Assembly (NCBI GenBank): GCA_018714805.1
Contig: DVMW01000037.1
Span: 1 to 64,000, forward strand
Direction of reading: 5' to 3'
Source: Candidatus Fimenecus excrementigallinarum
Lineage (GTDB): Bacteria; Bacillota; Clostridia; Oscillospirales; Acutalibacteraceae
Length of the DNA stretch: 64,000 nt
In this document: in pieces, positions 57,068 to 60,429 of the stretch
Layout: each line of letters begins with the position of its first letter
Numbering within the stretch: the first letter of the stretch is position 1
The notes under the pieces: generated by a model
Databases searched by the model: none
Seen by the model: only the letters and a program-made list of their open reading frames with translations
Told to the model about the DNA's origin: nothing
Translations under genes and position numbers: made by a program

Positions 57068-57811
57068 TTACCACCGGCCCAGAAGCCGGATATCCCGTTT
57101 CATCGCCTGCGCGCTCTGGTACCGATTGGTCATCTGGGTGGAGGTCGCCTTTTTGACGACCCGGCACAGAGGCCCGCGCGGCAGACCGACCGTCGGGTGG
57201 ACGCCGGTCAGCATGATGTTCAAAAGCACGCCCACGCCGTAAATGTCCGTCGCCTGGCCGCTTTGAGACAGCCCGAACTGCTCCGGCGCGGCATAGCCGA
57301 CCGTCCCCAGCATTTGGGTGTCCTTTGCCTTCGCCCCCAAAAGGCAGCGCGCGATGCTCAGGTCAATCAGCACCACGGTTCCGTCGGGCTTCAGGAGGAT
57401 GTTGGAGGGCTTGATGTCCCGGTGGATAATCCCGTTTCGGTGCAGGCCGTCCAGCGCGTCGCAAAGCTGCCCGGCATAGGCGCAGGCGGTTTTCTGCTCC
57501 AGCAATCCGTCCTCCAGCACATCGGACAGGCGCCTGCCCGGGATATATTCCTCCAAGACCAGCAAATGCGTCTCGGTCGAGCAGACCTCGTAAATGCAGG
57601 GCAAATGCGCCAGCCGCTTGCCCCGCAGGCGGCGGAACACCTCGTCGTTCCGGTTGGCGGAAAGGATTTCGACCAGCGCGTTCCCGGTCTTTTCGTGCCG
57701 CAGCAGGCGCACGCTGCCGTGCTCGCTGTGCTTGAACACCGTCTGCTCGGAATAGCCTTTTTGCAGCATCCCGTCAATATAGGCAAGCAGCGCGTTATCC
57801 GTTTCGCTCAT
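57068..57811 (-). CDS. Small Ser/Thr protein kinase lacking the usual beta-3 lysine
   Basis: The 247-residue cytosolic kinase domain has the catalytic loop HRDIKPSNIL near residue 130, the metal motif LIDLSIAR (DLS for DFG) and GTVGYAAPEQFG activation segment, with a short C-lobe. The N-lobe lacks a clear glycine-rich loop, and the ATP-binding Lys of VAIK is replaced (ALVEIL near residue 46). It therefore resembles a Clostridia kinase group with a reduced N-lobe. The ATG overlaps the HTH gene stop (ATGA). No sensor domain is attached; the upstream membrane protein may supply the input. Confidence 0.85.
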   Translation of the reverse strand: MSETDNALLAYIDGMLQKGYSEQTVFKHSEHGSVRLLRHEKTGNALVEILSANRNDEVFRRLRGKRLAHLPCIYEVCSTETHLLVLEEYIPGRRLSDVLEDGLLEQKTACAYAGQLCDALDGLHRNGIIHRDIKPSNILLKPDGTVVLIDLSIARCLLGAKAKDTQMLGTVGYAAPEQFGLSQSGQATDIYGVGVLLNIMLTGVHPTVGLPRGPLCRVVKKATSTQMTNRYQSAQAMKRDIRLLGRW

Positions 57812-58239
57812 TGCAGCTCCGCCTCGCCGTATTGCGTCAGCAGCTCGGACAGCCGGAAGAAGGAAAGCCGGTTCTCCAGCGCATAAATCAAAATGCAGTC
57901 CCGCCGGACGCGCGGATACAGGCGGGATTTTCCCGAAATCGTCAGCGCAACCTGGCAGTCCTCCATCGACAGCCCCATGGCAAGGGCCAGCCGCACGATT
58001 TTGTCCCGCGAAGGGATTTTCCGGCCGTTAATCACGTCGTAAAAATAGCAATAGCTGAAATCGGAGCGATTGATGATGTTCGACTTGGAGCAGCCGGTTT
58101 TTTCAATCATCTTTTCCCAAAAGGCATGGATGTCCTGCTGCAAAAACGCGGTCCGGTTGTTCTCAAAGTACTGCTCCAGCTCGCAGGCGTTATTTTGCAG
58201 CTCGAAAAGCAGCTCCCCCGTAGACTTGCGCACGGTCAA
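57808..58239 (-). CDS. Small XRE-like helix-turn-helix protein
   Basis: The 143-residue protein has a central segment with an XRE-like HTH pattern (SDFSYCYFYDVINGRKIPSRDKIVRLALAMGLSMEDC near residues 58-94), flanked by helical regions. It may bind DNA, or be an adaptor for the kinase. Both ends overlap its neighbours by ATGA (58236-58239 and 57808-57811), so it is translated with the membrane protein and kinase. Similar genes accompany small kinases in Clostridia, but the role is not described to my knowledge. Confidence 0.75.
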   Translation of the reverse strand: MTVRKSTGELLFELQNNACELEQYFENNRTAFLQQDIHAFWEKMIEKTGCSKSNIINRSDFSYCYFYDVINGRKIPSRDKIVRLALAMGLSMEDCQVALTISGKSRLYPRVRRDCILIYALENRLSFFRLSELLTQYGEAELQ

Positions 58240-59705
58240 TCCCCCTTTTCATACAGCTCGGTCGTCCCGGTAAACGTGCTTCTGCATTGGGCCTCGTACG
58301 AATGCCCCGTTTGCAGGCAGATGCGTTTCAGGTTCGGAAAGCTTTTTCGGAAATACAGCGAATCCGGCGAGTCGACGCCCGACGACTTCGGAATCCAGAT
58401 TTCCTCCAAATACGGGCATCGAATGTTCAAAATGGACAGGCATACATTTTCCGGCAGGCGAAAGCTTTTGTCCTTTTTGCCCGGCGGGTACAGGGAAAAC
58501 GAATACTGCCCGCTGTCGCTTTTGCGGAACAGAACGCCGTCCACCGAAAACGCACGCGGGTTGCCCGCCTCCACGTTGACGGCCTCCAGCGCGTCGTTGA
58601 CCATATTGTCCATCGGGAAGGACGTGGTGTTTTTGTGCATATCAATGCGCTTCAAATACGGGTTCTCATAGAGGTTGCACACGCCCTCAATCCCGGCGCA
58701 CCAGCTCGGAATGGTCAGCGTCTCGTTCGTGCAGGCGGGCGCGTAGTAGCGAAGGAGCCATTTTTGCGAGGACCAGTAATACAGCGCGCCGTTTTCAAAC
58801 CGATATTGGCTGTTGTCCACCGCAATCTCCCGAAGCGACGGGCAGTTTTCGGCAAAGCCGCCGTAAACGCCGAGGTTGGTGTCGGGCAGCCGCACGACGG
58901 TCAGCGCGGGCAAATCCGTCATGCAGCCCGCATCCAGCCACAAAAGCGTCTGCTGCGCGTCGCTTTCAAACGTAATCTCCCGGATACCGGCGTCGCCGGA
59001 AAACGTATTTCTCGCAATTCGGGCGACCGGCTTGCCGTCGATAACCGCCGGCACCGTCACCTTGGACGCATTGCCCGTATATTTGGTCAGCGTTATCCGG
59101 TTGCCCGTGCTGCTGTATGCCTCGTATTCAAAGCTGTCGTATTCCGGCTCGGCCGGCGCTGTGTTCGCCGCGCCGTTCTTATCCGGCGCCGGCGTTTCGG
59201 ACGGGGGCTCCACAGAAGACCCGGCGGTTGTACCCGCGGACGCGCCAAAGGACGACCCGTTCCCGGGCGCCGTTCCCGAAGGCTGCAAAACAGACGGCAG
59301 AGAGCTGCTTTGGGGCAGCAGGCTCCCCTGCTGCACAGAGCCGGCCCCGGCGTTCCCCTGCGGCGAAGGCGACGCCGCGGCGGCCGAGCCCGGTTCGTTC
59401 GCGTCCGCCGCGGTCTCCTCCCCTAAGGTCTGCGGCGCATCGTCCGTCTGCTTCGGCGGCGCCTGCACGGAAAGGTTGCCGGCGTCCAGCACGGACGTCA
59501 GCGTGCCGACGGTTAAGACCAGCAGCAGCACGGCGGCGACAATCCGTTCCGCCGCGCGCCTGCCGCCCGGCAGGCCGGACCGCTTTTGGGGCGCGGGAGA
59601 AGGCCGGTGCGCCTGCGGCGCGTCGGCCACCAAAGAAAAACAGGCGAGGCAGAAATGCGCCTCCTCCGGCATAGCCGCCCCGCAGACCGGGCAGACCTTA
59701 CCCAA
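58236..59705 (-). CDS. Membrane-anchored zinc-ribbon / leucine-rich-repeat protein
   Basis: The 489-residue protein starts with a zinc ribbon (VCPVCGAAM and HFCLAC, four Cys), then a transmembrane helix (about residues 53-75), a Ser/Pro/Ala-rich linker of about 120 residues, and a BspA-type leucine-rich-repeat domain (about 195-450; repeats such as IREITFESDA, LTVVRLPDT and LREIAVDN). This places the ribbon inside and the repeats outside, as in a receptor. TTG 59705 is chosen because AAAGGGGGA is seven bases before it; GTG 59729 lacks a site. It heads the operon with the HTH protein and kinase. Confidence 0.8.
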   Translation of the reverse strand: MGKVCPVCGAAMPEEAHFCLACFSLVADAPQAHRPSPAPQKRSGLPGGRRAAERIVAAVLLLVLTVGTLTSVLDAGNLSVQAPPKQTDDAPQTLGEETAADANEPGSAAAASPSPQGNAGAGSVQQGSLLPQSSSLPSVLQPSGTAPGNGSSFGASAGTTAGSSVEPPSETPAPDKNGAANTAPAEPEYDSFEYEAYSSTGNRITLTKYTGNASKVTVPAVIDGKPVARIARNTFSGDAGIREITFESDAQQTLLWLDAGCMTDLPALTVVRLPDTNLGVYGGFAENCPSLREIAVDNSQYRFENGALYYWSSQKWLLRYYAPACTNETLTIPSWCAGIEGVCNLYENPYLKRIDMHKNTTSFPMDNMVNDALEAVNVEAGNPRAFSVDGVLFRKSDSGQYSFSLYPPGKKDKSFRLPENVCLSILNIRCPYLEEIWIPKSSGVDSPDSLYFRKSFPNLKRICLQTGHSYEAQCRSTFTGTTELYEKGD

Positions 59706-59769
59706 TGCCGGCTCCCCCTTTCCTGACACATTCGTTTTTTGCAGATTTCTGTAACTTTCTGCAATATAA

Positions 59770-59817
59770 TAATAGAATATACACTAATAGAATATAGGGT
59801 ACGGTTTGCCTTGTCAA
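59770..59817 (-). promoter_or_regulatory. Promoter with tandem -10 repeats for the kinase operon
   Basis: On the minus strand TTGACA (complement of 59812-59817), 17-base spacer, TATTCT (complement of 59789-59794). A 12-base direct repeat, TAATAGAATATA (59770-59781 and 59785-59796), gives a second TATTCT 15 bases further on. These may be alternative -10 boxes or a regulator site. Confidence 0.65.
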
Positions 59818-59928
59818 GAAAAAACGGCTAAAAAAAGTTTATTTCCGGGTGTATGCTGTCAGCATATAGAAATATGGAAAAGAATGGAATATACTATTGT
59901 TTTTAATCCTTTTGCGGCTTAGCAAAGA

Positions 59929-59963
59929 CCGCGCCGCCGCCCGGGAAACGGACGGCGGCGCGG
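59929..59963 (-). terminator. GC-rich hairpin after the 38-residue peptide gene
   Basis: CCGCGCCGCCG (59929-59939) pairs with CGGCGGCGCGG (59953-59963). The minus-strand U-tract (TCTTTG) is short, so termination may be partial. Confidence 0.5.
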
Positions 59964-59973
59964 CCTGCGGCAT

Positions 59974-60090
59974 TCAGACGGCAAGCCAATCGGCTTCCTC
60001 GTCCGGCAAAGCCCGGACAGAGGCCGTTAAAATATCCTCCGTCTCCAAACTCTCCAAGCCGAAATCCGGCGTTGCATAAGGCTTTTTCAC
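59974..60090 (-). CDS. 38-residue peptide gene of unknown function
   Basis: A GTG at 60090 with AAGGAGGG in front opens a 38-codon frame with N-terminus MKKPYATPDFGLESLE, then TEDILTASVRALPDEEAD and the terminus WLAV. It is acidic and has no membrane helix. From memory, short Clostridia ORFs of the form KKxYxxPxxxxxxxxEDxLxxS occur widely but are rarely annotated. A strong ribosome binding site and a following hairpin support translation. It lies between the 88-residue membrane protein gene and the kinase operon. A role as a signal peptide, small regulator or substrate is possible but unproven. Confidence 0.6.
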   Translation of the reverse strand: MKKPYATPDFGLESLETEDILTASVRALPDEEADWLAV

Positions 60091-60162
60091 GCGTTGTACC
60101 CTCCTTTTTTGGTTGCCCTTTCCCCGACCCCCGCCCTGCGGGTGCTGTACAAGGAAGCTGCG

Positions 60163-60429
60163 TCAGCCATACCGTTCGGCGCTCAAAAACAGCTGCAGCA
60201 CAAGCGCGCCGACGCCGACCGCGCCCAAAAGCTCCTTGCCGCAAAGGAAAAGCTCCGCCGTAATGCGCGCCATTTTGTCATAGTCGCCGCATTGCCCCAT
60301 AAGCAGCCGCCCGGCGAGCGCGGCGGCAAAAAAGCCCAGCACAAACGGCATTCCCGCGTGCAGCACCCGCCTTGGCAGCGGCGAAAAGCTTTGAAAAAAT
60401 TTGCGCAGTTCCGGAAATAACGCTTGCAT
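60163..60429 (-). CDS. Small membrane protein, 88 residues
   Basis: The protein starts MQALFPELRKFF and has two hydrophobic helices (about 25-44 and 62-82) separated by a short CGDYDKMARITAE loop. No family is recognised. ATG 60429 follows GGGAGGAGGG; the longer frame up to 60723 is a shadow. It has its own promoter (60457-60486) and may be co-transcribed with the 38-residue peptide gene 72 bases downstream. Confidence 0.6.
   Translation of the reverse strand: MQALFPELRKFFQSFSPLPRRVLHAGMPFVLGFFAAALAGRLLMGQCGDYDKMARITAELFLCGKELLGAVGVGALVLQLFLSAERYG

Follow-up and report, generated by a model that had tools for sequence, protein, structure and literature searches.

The first 64,000 nucleotides of contig DVMW01000037.1 from Candidatus Fimenecus excrementigallinarum (hereafter, the window) carry on their minus strand, between 57068 and 59729, a three-gene operon that encodes a receptor-like membrane protein, a helix-turn-helix (HTH) protein of XRE-like type and a protein kinase, and a palindrome, TATGCTGWCAGCATA, lies upstream of it (Table 1). 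The three-gene operon is real, and it is also carried by G025, another genome of the genus. A first-pass annotation had the three genes joined by two ATGA overlaps; the one between the HTH and kinase genes stands, whereas, with the better start for the HTH gene, the receptor and HTH genes meet at TGA-CC-GTG. Because its Shine-Dalgarno sequence, AAAGGGGGAG, is well spaced and the start matches the proteins of relatives, translation of the receptor probably begins at TTG 59705.

Table 1. Features of the operon and of the adjoining DNA, in window coordinates.
Feature	Coordinates	Strand	Remarks
Hanks-type kinase, short, soluble, 247 amino acids	57068..57811	-	Glu48 at the VAIK Lys position; HRD Asp132, Asn137, Asp150 (DLS), activation-loop Thr165 and APE Glu177 retained
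XRE-like HTH protein, 141 amino acids from GTG (143 from TTG 58239)	57808..58233	-	conserved N-terminal Thr5; ATGA overlap with kinase gene
Receptor-like protein, 489 amino acids from TTG (497 from GTG 59729)	58236..59705	-	N-terminal zinc ribbon, one transmembrane segment, Ser/Pro/Thr-rich linker, leucine-rich-repeat-type C-terminal domain
Operon promoter-like sequence, TTGACA-17-TATTCT	59789..59817	-	
Palindrome TATGCTGTCAGCATA, candidate operator of the HTH protein	59852..59866	n/a	centre 42 bases upstream of the operon -35
Weak promoter-like sequence, TAGAAA-17-TATACT, abutting the palindrome and directed away from the operon	59867..59895	+	
38-residue peptide gene	59974..60090	-	surrounding locus, outside the cassette
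88-residue protein gene	60163..60429	-	surrounding locus, outside the cassette

Throughout the order, the HTH and kinase genes show strong linkage, and relatives of the two proteins occur largely in the same genomes. In a first set of 65 HTH-family genes, 52 have a kinase gene at a distance of up to 6 kb and 40 have one at up to 1 kb; in a second set of 66, taken from named genomes that include Ruminococcus bromii, the figures are 60 and 53. The two sets overlap (115 distinct HTH sequences together, 14 shared), and the 65 retain L084 and L085, two doubtful 200-amino-acid proteins (E 2e-12 and 8e-12). Because there are only 1.6 kinase matches per genome of about 2 Mb (94 in 59 genomes), a kinase gene would lie near an HTH gene by chance in about 1% of cases. 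The three-gene set recurs in many gut Clostridia, and HTH and kinase genes lie close together in R. bromii ATCC 27255 and 5AMG, Pseudoflavonifractor phocaeensis An507 and several genomes labelled Lachnospiraceae or Lachnospira. A gene for a zinc-ribbon protein with a transmembrane (TM) segment lies within 6 kb of 24 of the 65 and 30 of the 66 HTH genes, as counted with a strict pattern that misses some genes, the window's own among them owing to its start call. The arrangement varies: receptor-HTH-kinase, HTH-receptor-kinase, HTH-receptor with a convergent kinase, and divergent kinase and HTH genes, often separated by an intergenic gap of 30–140 bp. At L131 and L132, two to three zinc-ribbon TM genes stand in tandem near the kinase gene.

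Ten receptor proteins were scanned for domains, and in them the inner zinc-ribbon motif is constant and the outer domain variable. Leucine-rich repeats (LRR) score above the cut-off in L065, L077 and L117, the L131 receptor has a beta-helix match below it, and beyond the ribbon the scan gave no domain above the cut-off in L078, L119, L122, L298, L302 and L309. The window receptor itself stays below the LRR_5 cut-off (12.3 against 27.7 bits); its homologue L117, which aligns with it over nearly the full length, scores 39.9 bits. At L148 and L151, kinase, TM segment and LRR domain form a single chain, and kinases with TM segments number 34 against 78 short ones (overlapping sets). These fusions provide the strongest support for reading the separate proteins as a receptor and its kinase. 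Together with the HTH/kinase linkage and the zinc-ribbon TM gene that travels with the pair, they speak for the layout proposed at the outset, in which an outer sensor passes a signal to a kinase and a DNA-binding protein.

The HTH protein has a score below the Pfam HTH_3 cut-off (12.4 against 23 bits) and a best E of only 0.0074 against solved structures by sequence. In the predicted model, residues 31–102 form a lambda-repressor-like domain, preceded by helices at 5–14 and 19–25 and followed by helices at 110–120 and 125–134. Arg111 and Asp112 are invariant in 66 HTH rows; the residue that follows is Ser in 64 of the 66 (an RRDS motif) and Cys113 in the window. The position of Thr5 is occupied by Thr in 62 of 65 rows, by Ala in two, by Asn in one and never by Ser. 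Asn is found at L281, a 9.6-kb contig without a kinase gene, and Ala at L286 and L288, both second copies beside a copy with Thr. Thr5 is a candidate phosphosite.

In the window, as in G019, G012, G025, G031, G009, G010 and G323, the operon is preceded by a palindrome near CTATATGCTGWCAGCATA. Upstream of the 65 HTH units, a site with at most two mismatches was found in 14 cases and one with at most three in 22, against 3 and 9 of 190 control units. By their coordinates, the three best control matches are the operon's own site viewed from a divergent neighbour, and with those three removed the enrichment has p values of 2e-9 (at most two mismatches) and 6e-10 (at most three). At the divergent kinase/HTH loci L131, L132, L133 and L135, a variant of TATGC-N5-GCATA with three to four mismatches lies between both genes, and at L061 and L062 (in G019 and G012) the palindrome separates the cassette from a divergent response regulator/sensor pair, Agr-like in appearance. 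A terminator function was considered for the palindrome and rejected, since the window sequence has no run of T after it and since, at many loci, a -10 box follows at a fixed distance.

That spacing was measured from the end of the 15-mer to a -10 box defined as TAnnnT, 5 of 6 positions. Among sites from other families, other genera and divergent HTH copies in genomes of the window's genus (such copies, L074, L076 and L078, make up three of the 27 positives), the box lies at exactly +22 in 27 of 34 distinct sites, compared with a mean of 0.97 and a maximum of 5 in shuffled sequences and a mean of 0.66 and a maximum of 4 at other offsets. Among window-type sites, drawn from 22 own-genus sources with three mismatches allowed, it lies at +23 in 11 of 40 (shuffles, mean 1.0, maximum 4; other offsets, mean 1.2, maximum 6). 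The fixed spacing therefore places the centre of the palindrome near -42, beside a weak -35. Activation from near -42 is typical of lambda CI and similar XRE proteins, and the geometry would suit an activator bound there. In the window, the promoter-like sequence that abuts the palindrome has this geometry, which recurs at a cohesin gene and an LRR gene elsewhere in the genome.

The palindrome also co-occurs with the HTH gene from genome to genome. Within the genus, for which 39 genomes were compared, 8 of 15 HTH-positive genomes and 1 of 24 HTH-negative ones have a site with no more than one mismatch in 18 (p 8e-4), G007, which has a distant HTH homologue, being counted as negative. The sole negative genome with a site, G003, also carries a three-mismatch site beside a kinase relic. 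This relic, L086, is flanked by the genes that also flank the complete cassette of G025. Among 297 genomes of the order, the exact 15-mer occurs in 9 of 47 HTH-positive and 3 of 250 HTH-negative genomes (p 5e-6), positive being an HTH match at E up to 1e-15; weak HTH matches in frames of about 340 amino acids look like LacI-type regulators and were left uncounted. The three negative genomes lack the -10 spacing, and the seven genomes in which the exact palindrome has it are all HTH-positive, six of them with the site at the HTH locus.

What lies downstream of the sites? In the window genome, sites of the own-genus type precede the gene of a three-cohesin protein and that of a 1021-amino-acid BspA-LRR protein. 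Elsewhere, an exact palindrome precedes a cohesin protein gene in G019, and sites precede an LRR protein with a weak transglutaminase match, adjoining an LRR/dockerin gene (G031), a membrane-anchored C39-type peptidase (G009), and lipoprotein-like and small secreted proteins (G013). Some of the own-genus target sites listed have three mismatches, a class that includes chance matches (G001 has 4 such sites against 5 in a reversed control, and 2 of 27 sites lie inside genes). The window genome further encodes, at L082 (G000:C5, 6679–8751), a 690-amino-acid protein with GDSL-lipase-like, FHA and kinase parts, 140 bp downstream of a three-mismatch palindrome. Of 19 fetched sites with at most two mismatches, 2 lie inside genes and 16 have a gene start within 350 bp; the product is exported at 11 of these 16, against a background of 54 of 291 (p 1.5e-5). 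This count accepts a gene on either side of the site, takes in receptor genes and does not extend to the sites of G006, G011, G015, G024, G032, G329 and G331.

Taken together, we consider the chances somewhat better than even that the operon forms a cassette for outside-in signalling through a kinase, complete with a transcription factor and an operator of its own, and controls surface-protein genes. The receptor, with its zinc ribbon inside and its LRR domain outside, would sense a cue at the cell surface and, through its inner part, alter the soluble kinase. The kinase would act on the XRE-like HTH protein, probably at Thr5, at the start of helix 1. We infer that the HTH protein is the one that binds TATGC-N5-GCATA centred near -42 and that, from there, it would activate weak promoters in the way lambda CI does at PRM. 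Surface-protein genes, including those of cohesin, dockerin and LRR proteins and the receptor genes, would then follow the signal.

Several observations weigh against this reading. The window kinase lacks both the VAIK Lys and the Gly-loop. Thr5 tracks the kinase poorly, being retained in five of six HTH genes of the named set without a kinase in range (L287, L292, L327, L328 and L331), and its modelled place at the start of helix 1 could make it a mere N-cap. A match within three mismatches is missing upstream of 43 of the 65 HTH units, and therefore the site is either not universal or diverged; in two of the nine HTH-positive genomes with the exact palindrome, G055 and G302, it lies inside a gene and lacks the -10 spacing. 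The spacing test was devised after the sequences had been viewed, and the target count has the latitude described above. The promoter that abuts the window's palindrome is directed away from the operon and is antisense to the peptide gene; within 59867–59966, this plus-strand promoter runs into a GC-rich hairpin after that gene and may yield a short or antisense RNA. Finally, R. bromii has the local palindrome site only: a larger palindrome regulon was rejected for this species, in which the variant CCTGTGCTGWCAGCACAG, with up to two mismatches, occurs once per genome in two strains, and the TATGC form, with up to one mismatch, was not found in these two strains and two further genomes.

Which protein, then, reads the palindrome? 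An alternative that we regard as unlikely, and yet as the most serious, is that a different regulator, such as an XRE protein of about 111 amino acids, uses the palindrome and its promoters, and that the cassette HTH protein acts otherwise, for instance as a non-DNA-binding adaptor of the kinase. Indeed, a classic XRE gene ends about 37–84 bp before the site at L122, L293, L303, L308, L309, L311, L315 and L317, and the HTH protein shows unusually high conservation around its recognition helix (Tyr63, Tyr65, Gly70 and Pro74 at 90% or more), like a protein-binding surface. At these eight loci the classic XRE protein has about 111–116 amino acids and is encoded just downstream, on the strand opposite the palindrome promoter (L317 being judged from its near-twin L311). 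However, gene calling placed no XRE gene of this size next to the site of the window operon or at L131, L132, L133 and L135, and the exact site with the -10 spacing turned up only in HTH-positive genomes (7/7).

The kinase has the fold and the HRD Asp, Asn, DFG-type Asp and APE residues of Hanks-type Ser/Thr kinases (PF00069, 105.3 bits, cut-off 31.7). Its predicted fold is PknB-like, with PknB first by fold comparison, and bacterial Ser/Thr kinases such as StkP and PknB lead its solved relatives by sequence. It was rejected as a PASTA kinase of the PrkC/StkP type, because it reaches 126.4 bits against a cut-off of 450 with NF033483, has no PASTA match and no TM segment is called in its 247 residues. 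A separate kinase gene of the genome lies beside a putative PP2C phosphatase (L087). In the N-lobe, the window copy has Glu48 at the VAIK Lys position and no GxGxxG Gly-loop. Across 42 kinase rows that position holds K in 20, L in 7, E in 6, R in 3, Q and C in 2 each, and F and V in 1 each, and the residue after it is R in 22 of 42 and K in 5 of 42. All three closest orthologues of the window kinase have Lys there, from which a single base change could suffice to give Glu. The first-pass description of the kinase as lacking this Lys is correct for the window copy, while in the family the position varies. The window kinase could therefore be defective; alternatively, the family could hold its basic residue at another position.

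These changes raise the prospect of a pseudokinase, which would bind the HTH protein and the receptor and work by binding or release, without phosphate transfer. The missing Gly-loop, a shortened helix C region, the Lys-to-Glu change in the window and a residue other than Lys in 22 of 42 rows (the window's included) agree with it. However, Asp132, Asn137, the DFG-type Asp150, Thr165 and Glu177, residues of a kind that pseudokinases often lose, are invariant across the 42 rows, which, with the Lys of the three closest orthologues, makes a pseudokinase improbable and in our view less probable than a second regulator.

The first-pass annotation had also enlisted the two genes just upstream of the operon, encoding a 38-residue peptide and an 88-residue protein, as possible ligand, target or partner of the system. 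Both adjoin the operon on the same strand, and peptides of the 38-residue family follow two cohesin genes preceded by the palindrome, a point in favour of the proposal. However, the neighbourhood of the window operon (nrdR, isomerase-like, 88-residue protein, peptide and 114-residue protein genes) occurs without the operon in G012, G019 and G020, with two other genes, none and one, respectively, between the peptide and 114-residue protein genes. G012 and G019 carry the operon elsewhere, adjoining the response regulator/sensor pair that we read as Agr-like, and in the window a separate promoter-like sequence lies between the peptide gene and the operon. It therefore seems that the palindrome and the three genes have moved as a unit, to which the peptide and the 88-residue protein do not belong, and we consider their participation very improbable. 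The peptide family has several members in some genomes, several of them with the pattern Y-x-x-P-D-F ... D-I-I-T-x-S ... G-G-D-D-G-W, and at L203, L204, L206, L208 and L240 its gene directly follows that of a cohesin-like or other secreted protein. Least probable of all is a mobile cassette for defence against phages whose kinase would be PD-T4-6-like: the cassette occupies different chromosomal places in different species and the kinase matches PD-T4-6 models (best E 1e-36), but the best of the matches listed (25 of 36 models) covers only residues 69–209, the common catalytic core, a PrkC-type model matches equally (NF033483, E 1.7e-36), the receptor and the HTH protein match nothing in PADLOC, and targets in the genus include surface proteins.

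How does the proposed signalling cassette compare with known systems? A Ser/Thr kinase tied to a transcription factor is of a known kind. In AfsK/AfsR of Streptomyces (PMC10936776), a Hanks-type kinase gene likewise lies near that of a transcriptional activator, which AfsK phosphorylates, although phosphorylation affected activation by AfsR little. AfsR is a large SARP-NOD-TPR protein, whereas the cassette factor has 141 residues, is XRE-like and has no SARP Pfam match; the cassette adds a separate zinc-ribbon/LRR receptor and a kinase with an altered N-lobe. With the PASTA kinases PrkC, StkP and PrkA and their small substrates ReoM and IreB (PMC7286690), it shares bacterial kinase relatedness, membrane sensing and a small helical substrate, here a proposed one, that has a Thr close to its N terminus. 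There, ReoM Thr7, which PrkA phosphorylates, lies in a flexible N-terminal tail of about 16 residues, so that Thr5 of the HTH protein, at the start of a modelled helix, would be less free. Unlike these kinases, the cassette has no PASTA domains, carries its sensor on another polypeptide and has a DNA-binding-type protein as its proposed target. Plant LRR receptor kinases also combine LRR, a single TM segment and a kinase on one chain, as at L148 and L151, where the order along the chain is reversed; homology of the receptor parts is not implied. A parallel for the promoter is found in lambda CI and other XRE activators that act from -42, with an XRE-type fold and a palindrome centred near -42 beside a weak -35, and lambda cI with sigma region 4 is among the Foldseek matches of the HTH model (E 0.64). 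In contrast to lambda CI, the cassette HTH protein has extra N- and C-terminal helices and a tie to a kinase.

The novelty lies in how the cassette is put together, with its LRR receptor split from the kinase, in the conserved -42 site and in the targets among surface proteins. No description of this gene set was found in the literature searched by title or listing, most subscription journals lying outside the coverage, and a targeted search revealed no cohesin/dockerin regulator of the kinase-plus-HTH type apparent from paper titles. Tentatively, and with rather less than even confidence, we picture the system in full as a split LRR receptor-kinase on a cassette that can move. Its LRR receptor and its kinase, the latter degenerate in the N-lobe, would switch an XRE activator through phosphorylation of a single N-terminal Thr and so drive a cohesin/dockerin/LRR regulon from -42. 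The cassette would be distributed across gut Clostridia including R. bromii, and other lineages would have versions in which kinase, TM segment and LRR form one chain.

The targets seen in the genus include cohesin, dockerin and LRR surface proteins, a kind that serves gut bacteria in building enzyme complexes and in attachment to what surrounds them. For many bacterial Ser/Thr kinases, the range of targets is wide and difficult to define. Here, a kinase apparently has its own receptor, its own transcription factor and a recognisable operator encoded alongside it, so that signal, target and output would be testable as a unit, akin to two-component systems, and a cultured species, R. bromii, carries the HTH/kinase pair.

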